Shown: positions 3,837 to 53,500 of the stretch, one piece after another
Layout of the letters: each line of letters opens with the position of its first letter
Position numbering within the stretch: the first letter of the stretch is position 1
Assembly (NCBI RefSeq): GCF_900109575.1
Contig: NZ_FOAF01000001.1
Location: 310,001 to 374,000, forward strand
Reading direction: 5' to 3'
DNA length: 64,000 bases
DNA from: Olivibacter domesticus
Lineage (GTDB): Bacteria; Bacteroidota; Bacteroidia; Sphingobacteriales; Sphingobacteriaceae
Notes under the pieces: model-generated
What the model was told of the DNA's origin: nothing
Seen by the model: the letters and a program-made list of their open reading frames with translations, nothing else
Databases searched by the model: none
Program-made: the position numbers and the translations under genes

Positions 3837-4373
3837 ATGTTTATGCAAGAATTATTGCGGAAGATAAAGGAAGATGACGAATCGGCATTTAATGAATTGT
3901 ATTTTCGTTATTTTAATCCACTCATTCATTTTTCCTATTCCTTTGTAAACAATAGGGACATAGCGGAAGAAATAGTAAATGACGTTTTCCTTAGATTATG
4001 GTTAAAAAGGAAAACTTTGCCTGATATCGCCAACGAAAAGGTGTTTCTTTATACCGCTGCTCGCAATGCTTCCTTAAATCATTTGCGTACTTTCTCAACC
4101 AAACGTTTTAAAAATATGGAAAGCTTTCTAACGTCTGACCATCACATCCTTGTTGAATTTAGTCCGGAACAATATTATATCAGTGCAGAAACAAAGAGTA
4201 GGATAGTTAAAGCAGTTAATAGCTTACCCCCTAAATGCCAGATTATCTACAAAATGGTGAAGGAAGATGGACTATCCATAGCGGAAGCCGCGGAGATATT
4301 GTTGCTTTCTTATAAAACTGTATTTACCCAATTACAGATTGCATTAAAAAAAATTGCCGTTGTGATAGAATAA
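3837..4373 (+). CDS. ECF RNA polymerase sigma factor, FecI-like (locus 1)
   Basis: A 178-residue sigma-70 family protein of the extracytoplasmic-function type found in Bacteroidota glycan loci. Region 2 is seen as DESAFNELYFRYFNPLIHFSYSF followed by DIAEEIVNDVFLRLW. Region 4 is seen near the C-terminus as LPPKCQIIYKMVKEDGLSIA with a helix-turn-helix. It is followed 63 bp later by a FecR anti-sigma gene and then SusC/SusD, so it probably directs transcription of that SusCD pair and possibly the divergent GH92 gene. It should be held inactive by FecR until the SusC STN domain signals substrate. A -7-like box (TATTTTTG, 3738-3745) lies upstream, without a clear -33 partner. Confidence 0.93.
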   Translation: MFMQELLRKIKEDDESAFNELYFRYFNPLIHFSYSFVNNRDIAEEIVNDVFLRLWLKRKTLPDIANEKVFLYTAARNASLNHLRTFSTKRFKNMESFLTSDHHILVEFSPEQYYISAETKSRIVKAVNSLPPKCQIIYKMVKEDGLSIAEAAEILLLSYKTVFTQLQIALKKIAVVIE

Positions 4374-4436: not shown

Positions 4437-5489
4437 ATGGTAGACAAAGAAGAAATTATTAGGTTAATAATTAAGCGGCTGGGTAAAGCGATCACCTCTG
4501 ATGAAAGTGTACGGTTGGATGGATACTTAAAAAATTATCCCGAAGAAATGGCGCGGTGGGAAATAGAGGCTTTCATTAAGCTAAAAACGGCAGGTCAGCC
4601 CGACAATTTCACTCCTGAAGAGCTAAAGGAAAAAAATACGCAGCTTTGGGAAAACATTCATAGGGCTGAGATCCTGAATGAAAAACCTAACAATATACAA
4701 CGTAATGATCGCATTGTTCGTTTTAGAAGCGTCTATTGGACTGCTGCCTGTATCTGTTTTATATTGATCGGTATAGCTGCATTTTTTATTTTTCAGAAAC
4801 CTCAAGACCAATTGATTGCGCAAACGGCTTTTGGTGACACACAAAGTGTTGATCTGCCAGATGGTACGAAGGTAAAATTGAATGCCGGGAGTACTTTATA
4901 TATAGATCAGCAATTTAACACGGATACAAGAAAGGTAAAACTGATAGGAGAGGCATACTTTCAAGTTGTCAGTCGGCCTAATGCTCCTTTTCTGGTAGAG
5001 GTAGGAAACATCAAGGTAGAGGTTTTAGGTACGGAGTTTAATGTGAAAGCGTACCCTAATGAGAATATTGAAACGACACTTATTCAGGGTAGGGTTGCTG
5101 TAAATGTTAACGAGGGAGAGCGTATTATCTTAAAGCCTTTGGAGAAGCTGACCGTCGCGACTGGCAATTTGCAAGGAGCAAGCGCAAAAAGTAAAAGGGT
5201 AAAGGTTAGTGAAATCACGGGTAAAGGATCCGATGATCGAGCGCAAATTGCGTGGCTTTCGAATCGATTTGCTTTTTCTGACGATCGCTTTGGAGATGTT
5301 GTGCATCAATTAGAAAGGAAATACGATGTTCATTTTAGGTTTCAGGACAGTACTTTACAAAATGAAAAGATTAATGGTGTGTTAGAGCATGAAAATTTAA
5401 TACAATCATTGACGCTTTTGAAGCGAATAGTAGCTTTTGATTTTGAACAAAAACAAGACACTATAATTATCCGCAACGCAGAAAAATAA
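4437..5489 (+). CDS. FecR-family anti-sigma factor (locus 1)
   Basis: A 350-residue single-pass inner-membrane anti-sigma regulator. The cytoplasmic N-terminus (about 1-98) would bind the sigma factor. A membrane helix covers about 99-119. The periplasmic FecR domain (about 130-225) shows QSVDLPDGTKVKLNAGSTL, LIGEAYFQV and VLGTEFNVKAY. The C-terminal DUF4974 domain (about 275-350) starts at RFAFSDDRFGDVVHQLERKY and resembles an STN fold; it is the likely contact for the SusC STN domain. It follows the sigma gene and precedes SusC by 191 bp, a gap holding hairpins and a possible antisense RNA. Confidence 0.93.
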   Translation: MVDKEEIIRLIIKRLGKAITSDESVRLDGYLKNYPEEMARWEIEAFIKLKTAGQPDNFTPEELKEKNTQLWENIHRAEILNEKPNNIQRNDRIVRFRSVYWTAACICFILIGIAAFFIFQKPQDQLIAQTAFGDTQSVDLPDGTKVKLNAGSTLYIDQQFNTDTRKVKLIGEAYFQVVSRPNAPFLVEVGNIKVEVLGTEFNVKAYPNENIETTLIQGRVAVNVNEGERIILKPLEKLTVATGNLQGASAKSKRVKVSEITGKGSDDRAQIAWLSNRFAFSDDRFGDVVHQLERKYDVHFRFQDSTLQNEKINGVLEHENLIQSLTLLKRIVAFDFEQKQDTIIIRNAEK

Positions 5490-5529
5490 ACGTAAAATAT
5501 GAGAAAATGAAGACGAAACCAAGCTGAAA

Positions 5530-5615
5530 AGGAAAATAAATTAAGGACGAGTTGCCCCTCGCCCTTAATTTAACAAGGAACAAAGCTCCTTTATTCTAGT
5601 TATTAACCATACAAA
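5530..5615 (-). ncRNA. Candidate cis-antisense small RNA in the FecR-SusC gap (locus 1)
   Basis: On the minus strand a perfect TAnnTTTG box (TATCTTTG, 5629 to 5622) would start a transcript near 5615. That transcript first crosses a small hairpin (AAGGA 5575-5579 / TCCTT 5587-5591). It then meets a stronger one with perfect 10-bp arms (5537-5546 / 5563-5572). The T-rich run after the second hairpin (TTTTCCTTTT) lies on the minus strand, so the terminator points away from susC. The arrangement resembles DonS-type antisense RNAs described for sigma/anti-sigma glycan loci in Bacteroides. No -33 element is evident. The hairpins could instead act in the plus-strand leader. Confidence 0.35.
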
Positions 5616-5680
5616 GATAAGAAACCTTTTGATGTAATTCGCCTCACGGGGTAGCCGTTCTTTGTGAAAGCAAAAAATGA

Positions 5681-8600
5681 ATGAAAATAAGATTTTTGAA
5701 TGCTATTATCCTCAAACGTCCCTTTTACCTTAAACTTAGCATGATTATGAAAACCGGAATGCTGCTAACATTTGTAGGTGTAACACAGTTATTTGCCACT
5801 GGGCATACACAGGAGAAACTAACTATTAACGTAAAACAGTCGACAGTTAGTTATGTGCTCAATAAACTACAGCAGGAATCAACTTATCGTTTCTTCTACA
5901 ATTCGGCTGTCTTGGATCCTCTTGGAAAAGTGGATATCGCTGTAAAAGATAAGGAGCTTACCCAGGTATTAGACCAACTTTTGGGAAATACGGTGCCTTA
6001 TGAGGTACTTGATAAAAATGTTGTCCTTATAGGTAAGCAGGAAAACCGCCAACAAGCAATAAAGGGACGTGTGCTTGATGAGAGTGGCAGCCCTTTGTCG
6101 GGAGTAAGTGTGCGGATTCAAGGGAATAAGCAAGGAACTTCTACCGACAATGCAGGTGCTTTTTCATTGCCAGTTACCGTTGGTGCACAATTGGAATTCA
6201 GCTATATGGGCTATGAAAAGCAGGTGATCTCTATTGGTAACCAAACAACTCTCACCGTAACCCTGAAAATGGCAGCGGAAGGCCTTAATGAGGTAGTCGT
6301 GGTGGGATATAGCACACAAAGAAAAGCCGATCTTACAGGCGCGGTGTCTTCCATGAATATGGAAAGTGTAAAAAATACGGCAGTTACAGGTGTGGAACAT
6401 GCACTTGAAGGAAAAATGGCGGGTGTAACTGTTCTACAGAACTCGGGAGCACCGGGAGCCTCGGCTTCGGTAAGGATTCGGGGTATCGGTACCTTGGGAA
6501 ATAATAACCCTCTTTATATTCTGGATGGGGTTCCTGTAAATAGTATGAATGATGTGGATCCGAGTAGTATTGAGAAAATTGACGTACTAAAAGATGCAGC
6601 CTCTGCAGCCATTTACGGTTCGCGGGCAGCTAACGGAGTGGTTATTATAACCACTAAAAAGGGCATATCTTCTGATAAAGTGAATATTTCCTTTAATACC
6701 CAACAGGGTTTCCAAAGCCCTACGGGTAAAATAGATATGTTGAATGCGGTAGAGCGTAATCAAGTACATATGCAGGCTTATCGTAATTCAGGTTTAAACG
6801 TACCGGCTTATTATGGTACGCCTGAGGCGCAAATAACTGCAACCGATTGGCAGGATGAAATTTTTAAAAATGCCTATACAGCCAGTTACGATATCGGTTT
6901 CAGTGGTGGCAGCAATACGGCAAAATATAACATCATGGCAAGTCATTTCGATAATAATGGTTTTCTGAAAAATACCAATTTTAAGCGTACATCTTTTCGT
7001 GTAAACACGGAACTTAACTTAGCTAAGAATCTAAAAATTGGTGAGAATCTTATGTTAAGTGTCAACGATAATAAGGCCATTAATACCACTAGCGACTATT
7101 CTGGTGCACTTTATTCGGCACTTCTTTATCAACCTGATATCCCTGTTTACACATCCACGGGTGAGCTGAGTGGGGTAGGTGCTTTGGGCGGTGATGTGGA
7201 GAACCCCGTTGGTATCATCAACAGAGCAGATGATAAAACTGATCGAAAAAGAGTGATAGGAAATGTATTTGCTGAATGGAATGTGGTTGACCACCTTACC
7301 TTCAGATCTGATTTTGGATATGATTACACGAATGCGGTAAATAAAGTTTTCAGTCCGCGTATTCCGGAAGCTGGTCGGAAAAATGATGTGAACACCTTGT
7401 ACCAAGTGACAGAGCAGACCACCCATTGGATTTCTACCAATACATTAAAATATGATAATATGTTCGGTAAGCATCATCTGATGGCTTTGGGAGGGATGGC
7501 TGTAGAATCCAACAATTACCTGAATGATAATCAAAGGGCCAGCGGTTTTATTTCAGAAGACGAGCGTTCGCGGTATTTCTCTAATGCTACTACCATCATT
7601 TCTATGTACAGCGGACGGGAGGAGTGGGGACTGATTTCCTATTTTGGCCGTCTAGATTATTCCTTTAACGATCGTTATCTATTGGCGGGAAATCTAAGGG
7701 CGGATGGTTCTTCTAAATTTGCTAAAAACAATCGCTGGGGGGTGTTTCCTTCTGTTTCAGGAGGCTGGCGTATTTCAGAGGAACCTTTTTTTGAAGGGGC
7801 AAAACATGCGTTTAACAACTTAAAATTAAGAGGCAGCTGGGGGCAGCTTGGCAATCAAAATATTTATGATAATTATCCTACCTATAGTATTATTAGGAAC
7901 AATACCGACAATGATGGCTATTATAGTGTGTTTGGCGAGGGAGAAACACCAACGTTGGGACGTTTTGAATCTAATATTCCCAACCCAGATATTAAATGGG
8001 AAGTAACAACGCAATGGAATGTTGGTTTTGATATGGGTTTTCTGAACAATAACTTGGAAGTGGTAATGGATTATTATAATAAAACTACTTCCGATATCTT
8101 GCTGCAGGTGCCTATTACTTCACTGGCTGGTGTAACAACAGCGCCCTGGGTCAATGCAGGAAAGGTAGAGAATAAGGGCTTTGAAGCTGCCGTCACTTAT
8201 CATAAACAAGATGGCGACTTTAAATATGATATTGGGGCTAATTTTGCTACGTTGACCAATAAGGTGCTGGCATTGGGTGCCTCGCAGGCGATCTACGGTT
8301 CTACCTTTAGGGGTAATACGCTAGTACGCACCACGACAGGGCTGCCGATTGGTTATTTTTATGGCTATAAAACAGCTGGTTTGTTCCAATCTGATGCGGA
8401 AGTCAATTCGTATGTAAATGCAAATGGACAAGTATATCAGCCTTCGGCGGTGGCAGGTGATGTGAAATTTGTAGACATTGATGGAAATGGCGTTATTAAT
8501 GCAGATGACCGAACTAATTTGGGTAGTGGTTTCCCCAAATTAACTTATGGATTAAACTTTAATGCTAGTTATAAGCATTTTGATCTATCGATGTCATGGT

Positions 8601-9043
8601 ATGGTGTGGGGGGCAATAAAATTTTAAATGCTACGAAGTGGACGGGCATATTTGTGGATCCGCATTATAATCAATATGCTGATATATTAAATGCTTGGAG
8701 TCCTGAAAACACTGATACGGCAATTCCACGTTTATCGATTACGGATCCAAATGGTAACCAGCAGATTTCTGATATCTACGTGGAAAGTGGTAATTATCTT
8801 CGTTTGCGCAATCTTACCTTGGGTTATACGCTGCCGAAATTTTCTATCCGTAAAATAGCCGTTAACAATCTCCGAATATATTTAACAGGGCAAAACCTAC
8901 TTACGTTTACAAAATACTCAGGTATTGATCCGGAAATAGGTGAAACTTTTCCAGCATCGTATGGAAATAATGAGATTGGGGTAAACCGTGGGCAGTATCC
9001 GCAGGCTAAAACATTCATCATGGGCATTAACTTAAGCTTATAA
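5681..9043 (+). CDS. SusC/RagA TonB-linked outer-membrane transporter with STN domain (locus 1)
   Basis: A 1120-residue outer-membrane importer for oligosaccharides, powered by TonB. In order: signal sequence to about residue 43; STN signalling domain about 45-118 (LTINVKQSTVSYVLNKLQQE); carboxypeptidase-D-like domain about 127-198 (KGRVLDESGSPLSGVSVRI); TonB box and plug start EVVVVGYSTQRKADLTGAV at about 204; plug motifs including LKDAASAAIYGSRAANGVV; and a 22-strand barrel ending in an aromatic-poor terminus (ILGINLSL-like). The STN domain marks it as a transducer that talks to FecR. SusD follows after 93 bp. Substrate is inferred to be mannose-rich from the neighbouring GH92 gene. Confidence 0.95.
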   Translation: MKIRFLNAIILKRPFYLKLSMIMKTGMLLTFVGVTQLFATGHTQEKLTINVKQSTVSYVLNKLQQESTYRFFYNSAVLDPLGKVDIAVKDKELTQVLDQLLGNTVPYEVLDKNVVLIGKQENRQQAIKGRVLDESGSPLSGVSVRIQGNKQGTSTDNAGAFSLPVTVGAQLEFSYMGYEKQVISIGNQTTLTVTLKMAAEGLNEVVVVGYSTQRKADLTGAVSSMNMESVKNTAVTGVEHALEGKMAGVTVLQNSGAPGASASVRIRGIGTLGNNNPLYILDGVPVNSMNDVDPSSIEKIDVLKDAASAAIYGSRAANGVVIITTKKGISSDKVNISFNTQQGFQSPTGKIDMLNAVERNQVHMQAYRNSGLNVPAYYGTPEAQITATDWQDEIFKNAYTASYDIGFSGGSNTAKYNIMASHFDNNGFLKNTNFKRTSFRVNTELNLAKNLKIGENLMLSVNDNKAINTTSDYSGALYSALLYQPDIPVYTSTGELSGVGALGGDVENPVGIINRADDKTDRKRVIGNVFAEWNVVDHLTFRSDFGYDYTNAVNKVFSPRIPEAGRKNDVNTLYQVTEQTTHWISTNTLKYDNMFGKHHLMALGGMAVESNNYLNDNQRASGFISEDERSRYFSNATTIISMYSGREEWGLISYFGRLDYSFNDRYLLAGNLRADGSSKFAKNNRWGVFPSVSGGWRISEEPFFEGAKHAFNNLKLRGSWGQLGNQNIYDNYPTYSIIRNNTDNDGYYSVFGEGETPTLGRFESNIPNPDIKWEVTTQWNVGFDMGFLNNNLEVVMDYYNKTTSDILLQVPITSLAGVTTAPWVNAGKVENKGFEAAVTYHKQDGDFKYDIGANFATLTNKVLALGASQAIYGSTFRGNTLVRTTTGLPIGYFYGYKTAGLFQSDAEVNSYVNANGQVYQPSAVAGDVKFVDIDGNGVINADDRTNLGSGFPKLTYGLNFNASYKHFDLSMSWYGVGGNKILNATKWTGIFVDPHYNQYADILNAWSPENTDTAIPRLSITDPNGNQQISDIYVESGNYLRLRNLTLGYTLPKFSIRKIAVNNLRIYLTGQNLLTFTKYSGIDPEIGETFPASYGNNEIGVNRGQYPQAKTFIMGINLSL

Positions 9044-9136: not shown

Positions 9137-10657
9137 ATGAAAACTAATAAAAAAATTCGATATACTTTTCTTGTCTTTTTCACAATAGTGCTAAGCGCTT
9201 GCACCAAAGATCTATTGGATAAGGAACCTAATGGATTAAACTCCTTTTGGAATACGGGTGCCGATGCTGAGCTGGGTATCAATGCGGCATATACACCTTT
9301 ATATGAAGAAGAAGGTTTTGGTGAAGGTCAGTTCTGGTACCAAGCTGCCGGTGATGATTTTACCATTAATAACGCCGGTGAACGTAGTGATATTAACTTA
9401 ACTAATTTTGCAACTACAACGAATGCTTCTGGATATGCATATGCCCGTTGGCAGATTTTCTACAGGGTTATCCGCAGAGCGAACGATGTGCTTCGAAATG
9501 TGCCTGATATTGATATGGATGAAACAATGAAAAATCGCATTTTGGGAGAAGCTAACTTTTTATTAGGTTTTGCATATTTCGAATTAGCAAAATGGTATGG
9601 TGGTCTGCCTTTTTATGATATCAATGATCCAGAGAATATCAATCAACCTCGGCAAACGAAAACTGAAACGTTTAATCGCATTGAGCAGTATTTGCTGACA
9701 GCAACCAAGCAGCTGCCCGATTGGATTTATACGGGTGATCAGGTAGGCCGTGCCCATTTAGGTGCTGCATGGGGATACCTGGCTAAACTATATGCCTATT
9801 GGGGGAAATGGGAAGCATCTAGAGAGGCATCGGATAACGTAATTAATAGTGGCGCTTATACGCTTCAGGAAGAGTACGCTAATCTTTTTTCGCTCGATCA
9901 TGAGAAATCAAGCGAGGTGTTATTTGGCTTGGTGTGTGCTCCGGTACGGCATCAAACAACGATTACACCGATTATCTGTTTATCCAAAACTTTAACCGGA
10001 GGAGCGGGTTGGGCTTATTTTGCTCCAACTAAAAGCTTGGCGGATGCTTTTGAAGAAAATGATAGTCGTAGGAAAGCTACTTTGGCTGGTATCGATGAAA
10101 CCGTGCGGTTGTTAGGACAAGATATTGTACTCAATTCTGATAATATCAACGACATGGAAACGGGCTATATGTGCGTTAAATTTATGCAACCTTATTGGAA
10201 TGCCAACGCCTACTCTTGGGATGCAGGCTTAGATAATGCCATTTTACGTCTTGCTGATGTCTACTTGCTAAATGCCGAAGCTACCATGATGCTGAATGGA
10301 GGCGGACCACAACAGGCGGAAGTGCCTATTGCCGCAGCTGCTAACGCGTTAAACGCAGTACGGCTAAGGGCTTTTCATAATGATCAGAGCAAGCGCATTG
10401 ATGCACCTACCTTTAACGATCTGATGCGAGAAAGGCGTTGTGAACTGGCCTATGAAGGCGATAGGCATTTAGATCTAAAACGCTGGAACTTGGCGCAAAG
10501 TACGTACAGCCAAGCAAGCACCACTACAGATCCAAGGGGGCCGCGTCAATTTGATCCTGTAACGAATGCTTCTTTTCCGCTTCCACAAACGGAACTGGAT
10601 AACAGTAATGGCATATTGAAAAATAATCCGTTACCTACTTACTCAGATTTTGAATAG
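9137..10657 (+). CDS. SusD/RagB glycan-binding lipoprotein (locus 1)
   Basis: A 506-residue surface lipoprotein that caps SusC and captures oligosaccharide. The signal peptide ends in a lipobox (VLSACTKDLLDKEPN) with the lipidated cysteine at residue 22. SusD features include the alanine-rich TPR-like segments (NRILGEANFLLGFAYFELAKWYGGLPF) and the C-terminal MRERRCELAYEGDRHLDLKRW block. Near the end is FPLPQTELDNSNGILKNNP, the usual SusD terminus. It lies just downstream of SusC in the same orientation and is followed by a strong terminator, so the series ends here. Confidence 0.95.
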   Translation: MKTNKKIRYTFLVFFTIVLSACTKDLLDKEPNGLNSFWNTGADAELGINAAYTPLYEEEGFGEGQFWYQAAGDDFTINNAGERSDINLTNFATTTNASGYAYARWQIFYRVIRRANDVLRNVPDIDMDETMKNRILGEANFLLGFAYFELAKWYGGLPFYDINDPENINQPRQTKTETFNRIEQYLLTATKQLPDWIYTGDQVGRAHLGAAWGYLAKLYAYWGKWEASREASDNVINSGAYTLQEEYANLFSLDHEKSSEVLFGLVCAPVRHQTTITPIICLSKTLTGGAGWAYFAPTKSLADAFEENDSRRKATLAGIDETVRLLGQDIVLNSDNINDMETGYMCVKFMQPYWNANAYSWDAGLDNAILRLADVYLLNAEATMMLNGGGPQQAEVPIAAAANALNAVRLRAFHNDQSKRIDAPTFNDLMRERRCELAYEGDRHLDLKRWNLAQSTYSQASTTTDPRGPRQFDPVTNASFPLPQTELDNSNGILKNNPLPTYSDFE

Positions 10658-36347: not shown

Positions 36348-36379
36348 CCCGCTAAAGCTGCTGGAACATCCTTAGCGGG
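36348..36379 (+). repeat. Leader hairpin upstream of susC (locus 2)
   Basis: Arms CCCGCTAA and TTAGCGGG pair fully across a 16-nt loop, 52 bp after the FecR stop. No T-run follows on the plus strand, so it may be a 3'-end structure of the sigma-FecR message. Confidence 0.45.
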
Positions 36380-36397: not shown

Positions 36398-36456
36398 TCA
36401 AAAAACCGTTTGTTAAAACGGTTAGGGGGCTATTTGTTAAATTTTTATTAAAACCT
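36398..36456 (-). ncRNA. Candidate cis-antisense small RNA in the FecR-SusC gap (locus 2)
   Basis: A minus-strand TACATTTG box (36470 to 36463), overlapping the susC start codon, would start a short transcript near 36456. It ends at a perfect 8-bp hairpin (36404-36411 / 36416-36423) followed on the minus strand by GGTTTTTTG, a good intrinsic terminator that points away from susC. On the plus strand the hairpin is followed by AGGGGGC, so the terminator does not fit plus-strand transcription. No -33 element is visible. Confidence 0.35.
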
Positions 36457-36469
36457 AACAACCAAATGT

Positions 36470-39400
36470 ATGGAAAAAAAATCAACATTCATTGTTGTCA
36501 TGAGGACAGGCACATTACAATTAATTATGGCGATATTCCTGCTGGGGAGTACTTGGGCTGCAAATACCCATGCGCAAGGAATATTGAAAGAACGGGTCTC
36601 GTTTCCAAGAAAAGAGGCCTCACTACAGACGCTGTTGAAACATATAGAGCAGTCGTTTGATATTCATTTTATTTATAGCCCAGCATTGGTTGATGTAAAT
36701 CAACCCGTATCGATCGTTGCTGATGAAAAGCCACTGGACGCTTTATTAAATGAACTGTTAGATCCTTTGCATATTACCTACGAGCTTGCGGGCAATAACA
36801 TCATACTGAAGCGGGTGCGCGGACACAAGCAGGTAACGATGAAAGGCGTAGTGCGTGATAAGGATGGTTTATTATTGAGCGGTGTATCCGTACTACTGAA
36901 AAATGCGGTGGGTAAAGGCACTTCCACAAACGAAGAAGGAGTTTTCTCGCTTTCAGTACCCGCAAATGCAACGCTCGTGTTTCGTTACGTTGGCTATAAA
37001 GAACAAGAGGTGGCGCTCGGTAACCGCACTTTTATTGAAGTCATGATGGTGGAGGATCCAGCCAATCTGGACGAAGTGGTGGTGGTGGGGTATGGCACAC
37101 AGAAAAAAGCCAATTTAACGGGTGCTGTTGCAACAGTAAATGGAGAGGATCTGGTAAAGAGACCCGTAACGAATGCAGCCTCTATGTTGCAGGGGCAGGT
37201 ACCGGGTTTACGTGTTGTACAAAATTCGGGTGAACCCGGAAATGAAGGACTGTCGGTTAGAATTCGTGGCCAAGGTACATTCAGTGGAGCAGGCTCTAAT
37301 CCGTTGGTATTAATTGACGGTGTAGAAGGAAGCTTGAATGATGTGAATCCGAATGATATTGAAAATGTATCGGTATTGAAAGATGCGGCATCAGCTTCAA
37401 TTTATGGATCGCGGGCTGCTAATGGGGTGATTTTGGTGACCACCAAGGCTGGTACATCCGGAGGGTTTGTGGTTGATTATACCTTTAATGGCGCTGTGCA
37501 TAATCCAACGCGATTGTTTGATCTGATTACTAACTCGGCCGAATATATGGAATTGTGGAACGAGGCGAAAAGAAATAACGGAAATACCGCAGGCCTGTAT
37601 TCACAGGAAACCATCGATTTATATCGAAATGCAACAGATAGAGTACAATACCCGAATGCGGATTGGTTGGACATAATGTTTAACCCGGCCTTTGTACAAA
37701 CGCATAATCTGGGTATAAGTGGCGGTGCTGGCGGTACACATTACAATATGTCCATAGGTTATATCGATCAGCCAGGGGTAATGAAGGGTTTTGAATATAA
37801 AAGATACAATGCTCGCTTTAATATTGGCTCTTCTATTAATGACCATATTAAGGTGGGAGCGAATATTAGCGTGAAGCAGGGAGATGTTTCCCGACCTCGC
37901 CAGGGTGCGCAGGACGCCTTTATATCAACCATGTCACAGGCGCCTACTTATTTGCCTAAACTGCCTGATGGCCGGTATGCATTTAAGGCCTTTGATTTTG
38001 AATCTAACAATAAGAATATGGTGGCTATTGTGGAGAACGATGTGCTTTGGAAAAACAGGGATTACTCGGTGAACCTACAAGGCTGGTTGGATGTGCAGTT
38101 AAATAAAAAACTTAATTGGTATTCTAAGGCGGCTATTGTCGCTGATTTTGACAAATCGAAAGATTGGCGCCCTGTGGTGCCACTTTACAATTATCAGACA
38201 GGTAATTTTGCTACCGACCTGGATGTGGGGGGGAAGGGGCTGGCGGTAAACAACAGCGAAAATAGATACACAAATCTTTTCACTTACCTTAAATTTGAGG
38301 ACGAACTGGGGGCTGGCCACAATGTGTCGGCGCAGGTTGGTTATAGCCAAGAATCGAACAAACACGAATACCTATATGGTTATCGCAGGGATTTTTTTAG
38401 TAATGATTTACAGGAATTAGATGCTGGTGGGCTTGCCGTACAAAATTCAAGTGGGTCTACTTATGAATGGGCGCTGCGTTCTTTCTTTGGTCGCTTAACC
38501 TACAACTATAAAGAACGCTATCTTTTGGAAATGAATATGCGTTACGATGGAACGTCCCGACTGCATAATGACCATCGCTGGGGTGCTTTTCCTTCGATTT
38601 CTGGGGCTTGGCGTGTATCGGAAGAGTCTTTTGTGAAGAATGCAGATCTTAAATGGCTCAATAACTTCAAAATTCGCGGCTCGTATGGTGAGCTGGGTAA
38701 CCAGAACATTAATATTGACGTCCGTGCTAGCTCGCCTTATCAGTATTCGTATCAGGAAACTTATCCTTATCCTTTTCAGGAAATTTTAAATTATACCGGG
38801 AATTACCCTTTTGATAATACGAACCTGACTACTGGTGCAGCGCAAACAGCATTGGCAAACCAATTACTTATTTGGGAAACGACAAAGATTACCGATGTAG
38901 GGTTTGATTTAGCAGTGTTCAATGGCTTGGATATTACCCTCGATTGGTATAGAAAAACCACCACGGATATCTTGCGGGCATCGCAAGTAACAGGGATCGT
39001 TGGCCTGACAGCTCCAAACATTAACAATGGTACCATGCAAAATGAGGGGATTGAGCTAGCACTACGTTATAGCCATCGAGTGGCGTCGGGTGTGTTGGAA
39101 GGTTTGTCATACAGCTTTGGCGGAAATATTGACCGTTTTCGGAATAAGCTGGTTAAATTCGGCCAACGGGAAATTGGTAGTAATACGATCAAAGAAGAGG
39201 GACGCCCTTGGGACACATTCTATATGTTAGAGTGGACTGGCATCTTCCAAACAGAAGAGGAGATACAGGCTGCACCAAGGCAGTATAATGATGATACGCA
39301 GCCTGGTGACCTTATTTTTAAAGATCAGAATGGTGATGGCATCGTTGATGATGATGACCGTACTTATTTGGGTGGCCAATATCCATCTTTTGAGTATGCC

Positions 39401-49258: not shown

Positions 49259-50434
49259 ATGGAAACCAAGTTGCGCATCTTGTTCGAAAAGTATTTCAAA
49301 AAAACAGCTTCGCCGGAAGAAGAACTGGAGTTTTTTGCTTTGCTACAAAAGAACGAAGAGGATGGATCTCTAGAAGAATTATTGGAAAAAGCTTATCTGG
49401 TTTATGAGGAAAGTGAGCCCTTTTTTAATGCTGAACAGACAGGTCGGATGATGAACCAGATAAAGCAAGAAACTGCCGCGAAAGCTAGTATCAGGCGATA
49501 TCACATATGGCAATATGCGGCCGTTATCTTGCTTGGTTTGTGCCTTGGGCTTTTTGTTTATAATTATATCGCCAAACCGGTAAATAACATGGCTGTAAAG
49601 CAGAAGACGGTTGTAAAACGGGATGTAGCACCAGGAAATGAAACAGCTACTATTACTTTATCCGATGGTCATACAATAACAGTGGAAGAGATGGCAAATG
49701 GTTTATTCAATGATCAGGGAAATGTTTTTCTGAAGGAACAGAGAGGTTTATTGAATTATGCCGCTATTGGGGCGGGTACTAAAGAGGGCGCGTTTCATAC
49801 CCTTCAAGTGCCGAAAGGTGGACAATACCGGTTGGTACTGGCTGATGGCACGAAGGTTTGGTTGAATGCAGCTTCATCTTTACGTTATCCCACTCATTTC
49901 GGTGATAATATACGTGAAGTTAGCATCACCGGTGAAGCGTATTTTGAGGTAGCCCATGATGCCAACAAGCCTTTCTTTGTTAAATGTGAAGGGCAACGTA
50001 TTCAAGTTTTAGGGACACATTTCAACGTGCGTGCTTACCCAGATGAGCGGCTAGTCAGAACTACTTTATTAGAGGGAAGCGTGGTCTTAACAAAAGATGA
50101 TGTAGCAGACGATGTCACTAGTTTGCAACCGGGAGAAGAGGCCAGTCTGTTGGAGGGAGGAGATATGAGGGTTGAACGTCTAAGCGATGTTACTATACGC
50201 GTTGGCTGGACAAAAGGTTATTTTACCTTTTATCGGGCCGATCTTGGAACTGTGCTACGCGAATTGTCGAGGTGGTATAACGTGGAATTTAATGTGAAGG
50301 TGCCCACCACAAAAACTTATACCGGTAAAATTAACCGTAAACTGACGCTATCCGAGCTGATGAATGGTCTGGCTCTTTCTGGCATTTCTATTCAAATAGA
50401 GGATAAGGATCATATTATTGAATTACCAAAATGA
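49259..50434 (+). CDS. FecR-family anti-sigma factor (locus 3)
   Basis: A 391-residue single-pass anti-sigma protein. The N-terminal cytoplasmic part has EELEFFALLQKNEEDGSLEE. The membrane helix is about 86-103. The periplasmic FecR domain (about 120-275) shows ATITLSDGHTITVEEM, TLQVPKGGQYRLVLADGTKV, ITGEAYFEVAHDANKPFFVK and VLGTHFNVRAY. The DUF4974 end (about 318-390) starts FTFYRADLGTVLRELSRWYN. It precedes SusC by 113 bp. Confidence 0.93.
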   Translation: METKLRILFEKYFKKTASPEEELEFFALLQKNEEDGSLEELLEKAYLVYEESEPFFNAEQTGRMMNQIKQETAAKASIRRYHIWQYAAVILLGLCLGLFVYNYIAKPVNNMAVKQKTVVKRDVAPGNETATITLSDGHTITVEEMANGLFNDQGNVFLKEQRGLLNYAAIGAGTKEGAFHTLQVPKGGQYRLVLADGTKVWLNAASSLRYPTHFGDNIREVSITGEAYFEVAHDANKPFFVKCEGQRIQVLGTHFNVRAYPDERLVRTTLLEGSVVLTKDDVADDVTSLQPGEEASLLEGGDMRVERLSDVTIRVGWTKGYFTFYRADLGTVLRELSRWYNVEFNVKVPTTKTYTGKINRKLTLSELMNGLALSGISIQIEDKDHIIELPK

Positions 50435-50458
50435 CTTATAACATAGATGAAGCGTATG

Positions 50459-50519
50459 AAAAAAAATGGAACTTATCATAGCTCAACATGAATGATTAAA
50501 GGAGCAATTATAGATTTAA
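50459..50519 (-). ncRNA. Candidate cis-antisense small RNA in the FecR-SusC gap (locus 3)
   Basis: A minus-strand TAGGTTTG box (50533 to 50526) would start a transcript near 50519. It ends at a short 5-bp stem with one G-U pair (50469-50473 / 50480-50484) followed by eight T on the minus strand (50466 to 50459). The stem is weak, so this is the least certain of the three, but the geometry repeats that of loci 1 and 2. Confidence 0.25.
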
Positions 50520-50547
50520 ATTAAACAAACCTAACATTAAGATTTAT

Positions 50548-53500
50548 ATGATCGCAATTAAAAACAAGGCGAGATGGGTTGCTATTGGCCTTTATTTAAG
50601 AAGAAAAGCACAAAAAAAGAGGATATCAGGCTGCATGCTGATCATCTCCTTATTATTGAATACTTCGGTGCTTGCTGCCCAGAACATCAACCTTAACATG
50701 AAAGGTGCCTTACTGGCAGAAGTTTTTGCTTCTATTGAAAAGCAGTCGGACTACACTTTTTTTTATAACGACCAACTGCTTGATCAGACACGTAAGGTGG
50801 ATCTAGCTATCAAAAATGCCTCCGTGGAAGACGCCTTGAAAGCGGCTTTAACTAGCTTTCCCCTGGCGTATGAAATTAAAGGAAAGACCGTTTTTATTAG
50901 TGAAAAACACCTCGCAATTCCGACAAAAAGTGCAAAGCAATTGGCGTTGCACGGAAAGGTAGTTGATGAAGCAGGGTTACCCCTTGCAGGGGCCTCTGTA
51001 CGGGTAAAAGGGGCTACGGCGGGGGCTTTGACGGATGGGAATGGCACTTTTACTATACGAGCTGCTTCGGGTGCTATTTTGGTTTTTTCTTACGTGGGTT
51101 ATTCTGAAAAAGAAGTATCGGTTAGCGATACGAGTATGCTTACCATTACCTTAATTGCGGCCAGTAATAGTCTCGAACAAATTGTAGTGGTGGGTTATGG
51201 TACTTCGCGCAAAGGAAATCTTAGTACTGCTGTGGGCTCTGTAAAGGGGGACGAGCTACTGGAACGCCCCTCTGCACAGAATCTGTTGCAGGGAATGGCT
51301 GGCAAAATTGCTGGGGTAAACATCAATTTAAATTCCGGTAAACCAGGGGGCAACCCAGCGATTAAAATTCGGGGTACAGGTTCCATTAATGGTTCAAATA
51401 CACCGCTCTATGTAATTGATGGTATTGTAGGGGCAGATCCAACTACTATTGATCCGAATATCATCCAATCCGTGGATGTCTTGAAGGATGCCTCTTCCGC
51501 CGCAATTTATGGATCGAGAGGCGCAAACGGTGTGGTAGTCATCACCACAAAAAATGGCGACCCTAACAGTTCTCAAATTGCTTTTGATAATACCTTAAGC
51601 CTGGCCTCACTACCGCGTGAACTCGACTTGCTGGATGCTACGGAAAGTTTGGAAATGTTCAAACGCCAATATGAATATGTACCGGGTAGAATTGCCCCTC
51701 ATTTAGATCCCAACAATTTTTTTGCGCATAAGCAAGAGTTGTTTAACGACGATGGAACGCCTAAATATAATGTGAACTGGCAACGTGAAGCAACACGCTT
51801 GGCGGTATCGCACCAACATGCCTTGACATTTTCCGGTGGTAAAGATAATATTAAAGTGCTGGCCAACGTGTCGTATCGAAATAATGAAGGTATCATGTTG
51901 AATAGCTATTACAAGCAACTGAACGGTTTTTTAAACCTGGATTGGGATGTAAAACCCTGGTTAAACATCAAAGCCAATCTCAACACCGGCGGTTACCAAA
52001 GCAATAATATCGATAATAATACATTGGGATTGAATGCATTGCGGCAAAGCTTGGAATATTTGCCTTTCTTACCTATTACTTACCCGGATGGTACCTATTC
52101 GAGAAAGGGAGATTATCCCGGTGCAGAGAACTCAGAAAATCCTATTAAATTACTCAACGAAGTGAAGAACGTTACGGGGAGGACACAGTCTTTGGGAAAC
52201 TTGATGGCAACGTTCCACTTATCAGATAAAATCGATTACCATGCTTCAGTAAGTGGGCAGCTATCCTCCAGTTACAACTTGTACTATGGTGGTAGGACCG
52301 TATACGATGTAGCGGAGAATCAGCAGGGAGTTGCCGAGAGGGGGCACACAGATTTTGGTTCATGGACGACTGAGCATTATTTTTCTTATAATACCAGCTG
52401 GAACAAACACCACCTAAATGCGGTAGCAGGGGCAAGTTGGTATTATTATGTTACGTCTAACGACCGCGCTGGAGCGGAAGGATTCTTTGATGATTTTTTT
52501 CAGTACAATAATCTCGGAACAGGAACTACACCACGCATACCCAGCTCCGGAAAAACGGAGAACCAGTTGAACTCTTATTTTACAAGAGCAAACTATAATT
52601 TCGATGATCGTTATCTTTTGGGGGCCTCTTTCCGGGTAGATGGTAGTTCGCGTTTTGGTGCGAATAACAAGTATGGTTATTTCCCCTCGTTTTCTGCTGC
52701 TTGGCGTATTTCACATGAGTCTTTTTTCAAAGAAATGAATAGTGGTATCGACGATTTAAAGCTGAGAGCAAGTTACGGTATCGTCGGAAATGCGGAAATA
52801 GGTGATTATGTTACGCTGAATCGATATAACAATGGCCAGGCGGTCTTTAATAATAATTATGAGTCATCCGTAACGCTGGCCGGTCTTGGAAATCCAGATT
52901 TGCGCTGGGAGAAGGCTAAGCAGCTGGATATTGGCTTAGATATTAGTTTGTTAAGCGGTCGCCTGTTGTTGACGGCAGACGTGTATAACAAGCGAAACGA
53001 TGATTTACTTTATCTGCGAAAATTACCATTAACAACAGGTTACACCAATGTATTTGATAATATTGGAAGTATCCAAAACAGGGGTATTGAGCTTGGTATC
53101 AATACAGTGAATGTGAAAAAAAGCGATTTTACCTGGACTACCGGTTATAACTTTTCTATCAACCGCTCGGAGGTTATCGATATCAATAACGATGTGATTT
53201 ATCCTTGGTTTGGCCGAATTATCGCCGGAGGTCCTCTAAATGAATTTTTTGGTTATGAACGCTTAGGGGTATGGGGAACGGATGAGGCAGAACAGGCCAC
53301 ACAGTATGGAAAAAAGCCGGGCGATATTAAATATCGCGATACCAATGACAATGGTGTAAAAGACGCGGACGATCGGGTCAATCTGGGCAATGCCATGCCA
53401 AAATGGGAAATGAATATGACGAATACGTTAAGCTATAAAGGGTTTTCGTTATTTATTGATTTGCAAGGCGTGTATGGAAATCATGTGATCAGCCTTGCCA

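Follow-up and report, generated by a model that had tools for sequence, protein, structure and literature searches.

The window analysed here is a stretch of 64,000 nucleotides from Olivibacter domesticus. At locus 1, an ECF sigma factor gene, a FecR-type anti-sigma gene and homologues of susC and susD follow one another on the plus strand (Table 1). A sequence-only reading of this DNA had named these genes in the same way and their Pfam domains confirmed it. A GH92 gene is the opposite-strand neighbour of the locus. The susC start codon given in Table 1 is the earliest possible, since an in-frame stop occupies positions 5678-5680. The gap between fecR and susC carries a series of minus-strand elements, namely a promoter box, a small hairpin and a terminator-like hairpin with its T-rich tail, preceded on the plus strand by two overlapping mini-ORFs. 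A second locus of the window has a box in the canonical position and two hairpins on the minus strand, while at a third locus (susC at 50548) the gap, 50434-50548, is without terminator.

Table 1. Positions of genes, predicted elements and mini-ORFs at locus 1 and of the minus-strand elements at the second locus of the window
Feature	Position	Strand	Remarks
ECF sigma factor gene	3837..4373	+	Pfam Sigma70_r2, Sigma70_r4_2
FecR-type anti-sigma gene	4437..5489	+	Pfam FecR, FecR_C
Mini-ORFs MRK-stop (5499-5510) and MKTKPS-stop (5507-5527)	5499..5527	+	Between FecR stop and hairpin, locus 1
T-rich tail TTTTCCTTTT	5527..5536	-	Directly 3' of terminator hairpin
Predicted antisense RNA, ~75-81 nt	5527..5607	-	Putative start near 5607, putative end in T run
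Intrinsic terminator-like hairpin, 15 bp, 6-nt loop	5537..5572	-	Five G-C pairs, one G.U
5' hairpin AAAGGAGCTTTGTTCCT, 7 bp	5575..5591	-	From folding; 5' hairpin likewise present in closest homologues
-7 box TATCTTTG (TAnnTTTG), predicted antisense promoter	5612..5619	-	Perfect -7 consensus; 61 nt 5' of susC ATG
susC homologue (TonB-dependent receptor), presumed antisense target	5681..9043	+	CarboxypepD-reg, weak STN match
susD homologue	9137..10657	+	Domain search
Second locus, CCCGC...GCGGG hairpin, weak T tail	36348..36379	-	Tail stronger in homologues L061 and L048
Second locus, inner 8-bp hairpin and T6	36404-36423	-	
Second locus, box TACATTTG	36463..36470	-	Over susC start codon (canonical position)

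From a minus-strand box, hairpins and a T-run behind a 10-bp stem, the sequence-only reading had proposed an antisense RNA of about 85 nt in the FecR-SusC gap. The box, both hairpins and the T-run were all found where Table 1 places them; the stem had been underestimated, as it comprises 15 bp. The length also had to be revised. The sigma-A box of Flavobacterium was measured to cover positions -12 to -5 (PMC9723704), and the same spacing at locus 1 would put the start near 5607, within a recurrent GGTTAA, and give an RNA of about 75-81 nt. The -33 TTG is absent 5' of the TATCTTTG box, as had been stated, and the bases at that position are CGA. Folding of positions 5527-5605 of the minus strand yielded two hairpins (-28.0 kcal/mol), and for the gap region on this strand the fold reached -44.5 kcal/mol (z = -3.7), a value attained in 0 of 200 shuffles. 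Among 1000 dinucleotide shuffles of the gap, none produced a hairpin reaching -20 kcal/mol, five (0.5%) produced any pair of box and terminator, and 145 (14.5%) produced a box; TATCTTTG itself occurs four times in the window, which is the chance expectation. The box alone is weak evidence because of the frequency with which boxes arise in shuffled sequence; the pair of box and terminator at locus 1 is unlikely to be due to chance.

The occurrence of this arrangement was evaluated across the genus. The whole genome contains 56 FecR_C matches, and 68 loci with a FecR gene just upstream of susC were gathered from the O. domesticus genome and four sister genomes, with 37 susC genes without FecR as controls; gaps were set by HMM-defined FecR and SusC, with ATG-only starts. 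A minus-strand unit of box and terminator was present at 39 of the 68 FecR-linked susC genes and at none of the 37 controls (p = 3e-10). Minus-strand terminators followed the same distribution (50/68 versus 7/37), and plus-strand terminators were no different between the two sets (11/68 and 7/37). The motif TAnnTTTG was located between -8 and +6 relative to the start codon at 38 of the 68 FecR-linked genes and at two controls; susC start codons in general thus do not lie in such a context. Within the FecR loci, this box was found at the start codon in 35 of 50 terminator-bearing cases versus 3 of 18 others (p = 2e-4). In most cases the box overlaps or directly adjoins the start codon of susC, reading CAAATGTA, or CAAAnnTA with TG or ATG behind it; the hairpin typically starts 50-100 nt upstream of that codon. 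A weak -33 signal was detected: 8 of 53 loci have TTG at -22 relative to the box, with most other positions scoring 0-4. Family-wide, FecR-susC loci repeatedly show GGTTA or GGTTT 11-17 nt after the box start, where the antisense RNA is predicted to begin; the sense-strand reading of this motif, TAACC or AAACC, comes a short distance before the start codon of susC.

Sixteen loci around the nearest susC homologues, chosen by protein and about 36-39% identical to the susC of locus 1, were compared in the same respect. All 16 have TAnnTTTG beside the start codon (TACATTTG in 13, TACTTTTG in two and TATATTTG in one), followed by a 5' hairpin GAGTAA...TTACTC with a variable loop and by a terminator hairpin GGGA...TCCC, hence in the same order as at locus 1. 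Both hairpins were recovered de novo by RNAalifold, with 98.5% of cells paired. Compensatory changes were seen at three pairs, amounting to five cells versus 0.6 in shuffles, and the remaining stem variation consisted mostly of A-U to G-U changes on the minus strand. The sequence-only reading had suggested a search for conservation of hairpin and box in relatives, and these homologues (~38%) have kept the box and a two-hairpin RNA. For the susC of locus 1 itself, no relative above ~39% identity was found in 301 genomes of the family or in genome contigs, too distant a match to judge the box of this locus by.

Units of the same kind extend beyond the genus. Among loci of the same family, mostly from other genera, terminators were found on the minus strand in 27/30 cases versus 2/30 on the plus strand, and complete units in 18/30. 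Other families of the class had terminators at 8/27 and units at 2/27 loci, and organisms outside the class at 2/13 and 0/13, respectively. Six genomes of Bacteroidales (Bacteroides rodentium, three Parabacteroides, a Dysgonomonas and Tannerella forsythia) provided 29 FecR-susC loci, with terminators at 20, boxes at the start codon at 17 and units at 19; their stems contained 11 G.U pairs on the minus strand versus none on the plus strand. A covariance model of the hairpin (R1) run on the whole genome gave 20 matches, 17 of them upstream of susC genes, most of these being training members and one the opposite strand of another; the three others were terminator-like hairpins at gene ends or within a gene. 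The model matched the terminator hairpin of locus 1 (5533-5568, minus strand) with 18.6 bits, this hairpin being itself in the training set. Its best match genome-wide was a new member (L236:2620-2899), with a box TAGCTTTG at the susC start codon and a terminator. The susC gene concerned has no adjacent FecR, the upstream ORF, on the same strand, encoding 733 aa, which shows that the unit goes with this SusC type and not strictly with a neighbouring fecR.

Another possible explanation is that the minus-strand terminator acts as an insulator against spurious antisense transcription from inside susC, no discrete regulatory RNA being made. Antisense transcription is indeed pervasive in Bacteroidota (PMC9723704, PMC7366714), and among the 68 FecR-linked loci the terminator is commoner than the exact box. 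However, box and terminator co-occur, the place of the box is fixed at the start codon, and the 16 homologues have kept the box together with a second hairpin that is not a terminator, so that a mere insulator appears unlikely.

The layout of locus 1 departs from that of the usual loci, in that the whole unit lies about 61 nt farther upstream. In canonical loci the predicted RNA starts about 10 nt ahead of the start codon and spans the leader, whereas at locus 1 it would start about 74 nt ahead of it. The RNA of locus 1 would occupy a stretch some 75-155 nt 5' of the susC ATG, and owing to the displacement it cannot cover that codon. It could be considered that the antisense RNA is real and starts elsewhere, for instance at the degenerate CATTTTTTG near the start codon, as the position of the box in other loci would suggest; such an RNA would measure about 150 nt and extend over the sequence immediately 5' of the start codon. 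We regard this as quite unlikely, since CATTTTTTG departs from TAnnTTTG at both the T and the A, whereas the upstream box matches it perfectly and has GGTTAA after it. Moreover, the layout of a Parabacteroides locus (L280) is displaced in the same way, with the box at 59 and the hairpin at 109, as compared with 61 and 108 at locus 1. Overall, the evidence is moderate for locus 1 and strong at the level of the family.

The strand on which the structure operates was addressed separately. Inverted repeats were picked by Watson-Crick pairs only, at five thresholds, because the hairpin folds on both strands and this choice is strand-blind. At the loosest threshold, 82 of 143 FecR loci had an inverted repeat. 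Stem positions other than Watson-Crick pairs were G.U on the minus strand in 40 cases and on the plus strand in one (p = 4e-11), and T-rich tails were on the minus side in 57 cases and on the plus side in three (p = 6e-14); these p-values are optimistic because many loci are related, but the direction is unambiguous. Both biases held at all five thresholds, and in the same test susC genes without FecR displayed neither. At locus 1, the single G.U of the terminator stem on the minus strand is likewise a C.A mismatch on the plus strand. These counts argue for selection of the structure as a minus-strand RNA with a terminator. Together with the RNAalifold covariation test on the 16 homologues, this strand-symmetric test constitutes the unbiased evidence; covariation in another hairpin set (A1) was discarded in this respect, being partly circular, as its hairpins had been picked by folding. 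The loops of 76 terminator hairpins tend to GTTNNNGC or to its reverse complement GCNNNAAC, and both orientations occur. As a strand-specific signal GTTNNNGC was rejected, since it is also found on the opposite strand (26 versus 11 of 76 with strict matching, 43 versus 40 with relaxed matching). That the hairpin acts instead in the plus-strand susC leader, as a cis-regulatory stem-loop with the mini-ORF as leader peptide and with the minus-strand box as a coincidental start-codon context, would agree with a near-perfect inverted repeat folding on both strands and with the over-represented mini-ORF just upstream, but is very unlikely in view of the G.U and tail counts and of the near absence of the box from the start codons of susC genes without FecR.

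The existence of a minus-strand unit and its selection as RNA are supported by these comparisons, while promoter use, RNA length and repression of susC are what we infer. The candidate antisense RNA put forward in the sequence-only reading has gained support from the recurrence of the unit in genus, family and Bacteroidales, from the strand asymmetry and from the 16 homologous loci, all of this by sequence prediction and comparison. The gap of locus 1 is probably occupied by a small minus-strand gene, in which a housekeeping-sigma promoter would give rise to a terminated RNA antisense to the susC leader, most likely lowering susC-susD in cis.

The sense-strand mini-ORFs upstream of the hairpin were also found to be frequent. 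A tiny ATG ORF lies between the fecR stop and the hairpin in 43 of 48 long gaps, versus 21.4 +- 3.1 in shuffles; these ORFs mostly have 2-16 codons, and 83% of ATGs meet a stop ahead of the hairpin, versus 57% in shuffles. In Bacteroidales their context is often GCCTATG. The mini-ORF of the 16 homologues has 9-10 codons, is open in all and ends in DS-stop, mostly YL(S/T/P)DS-stop. Its leucine codon varies (TTA, CTA, CTC or CTG), but the DNA sequence GATTCC is the same throughout and third positions show no excess of changes, so that a DNA element is possible. In these loci (L243-L258, alignment A2) a strongly conserved block TCAGGAATCTGATAAGTAA follows the terminator on the minus strand; its plus-strand reading, TTACTTATCAGATTCCTGA, forms the last part of the mini-ORF and may in addition contain a sense promoter element. 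No report of mini-ORFs in FecR-susC gaps was found in the literature searched. One may tentatively picture the gap as a two-sided switch conserved across Bacteroidia, with a translated micro-ORF (~2-16 codons) ending before the hairpin and an antisense RNA from the susC start codon, where the leader would stay free or be captured by that RNA depending on ribosomes on the micro-ORF or, with short gaps, at the end of fecR; this scheme is rather doubtful.

The candidate RNA is set in an ECF sigma/anti-sigma/susC/susD glycan locus, and a sigma/anti-sigma glycan locus is also the DonS locus type. DonS is described as the type of a family of cis-antisense RNAs of 78-128 nt that are divergent to susC homologues and lower their expression (PMC7366714). 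In B. thetaiotaomicron, 32 PUL-associated antisense RNAs are known, several of which are anti-correlated with their susC and some positively correlated (PMC10994844); repression need thus not hold at every locus. The unit of locus 1 shares with these RNAs of B. fragilis and B. thetaiotaomicron the antisense orientation divergent to susC homologues, a predicted housekeeping-type promoter and a terminator. Its predicted 75-81 nt, with both ends set by prediction, compare with 78-128 nt for the DonS type, from which it differs by lying about 61 nt farther from the start codon. As to the promoter, the -7 box of locus 1 is perfect and comes without a -33 element, the TTG at -22 being confined to the minority of related loci mentioned above. 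By prediction and comparison, an RNA antisense to the susC leader is encoded with its own promoter box and terminator, and the unit can be demonstrated in relatives among the Bacteroidales (19/29 loci in six genomes). The parallel with DonS drawn by the sequence-only reading fits well as regards position, orientation, gene context and predicted size, the RNAs being likened by description (PMC7366714, PMC10994844), and by its architecture the unit of locus 1 can be assigned to the DonS-type PUL antisense kind. FopS and GibS of B. thetaiotaomicron are likewise short, carry a terminator hairpin and repress susC mRNAs; unlike the unit described here, they target many susC mRNAs in trans by means of a shared 5' seed and most are intergenic (PMC11697453). 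Rfam release 15 gave no match above gathering score in the 64-kb window, and at a relaxed threshold only sub-threshold, implausible matches in 11 related loci. Flavo-1 RNA (RF01705), likewise a structured RNA of Bacteroidota, was dismissed, since its one match (L178:296-375) reached 25.8 bits for a cut-off of 42 and lies outside the gap.

A mechanism can be proposed along these lines. The housekeeping-sigma promoter TATCTTTG would drive an RNA with a short 5' hairpin, ending at the intrinsic terminator. This RNA would lower susC-susD expression in cis while FecR holds the ECF sigma factor, through a duplex with the susC leader, through collision of the two transcription units, or both; once the ECF regulon is induced, its effect would be overridden. 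Given the distance of the predicted RNA from the start codon at locus 1, an effect on leader transcription or stability appears likelier than a direct block of the ribosome, and pairing with the upstream leader or transcription collision is more likely there than occlusion of the start region.

The unit thus represents a regulator of an ordinary kind, and a well-supported one. Its presence throughout the family and in Bacteroidales indicates, at the level of sequence comparison, that antisense control of susC may belong generally to ECF sigma/FecR/SusC loci instead of being peculiar to gut Bacteroides. Dozens of loci in each genome are thereby opened to testing together. The promoter box commonly lies over the susC start codon itself, and this position rule offers a simple route to annotation.
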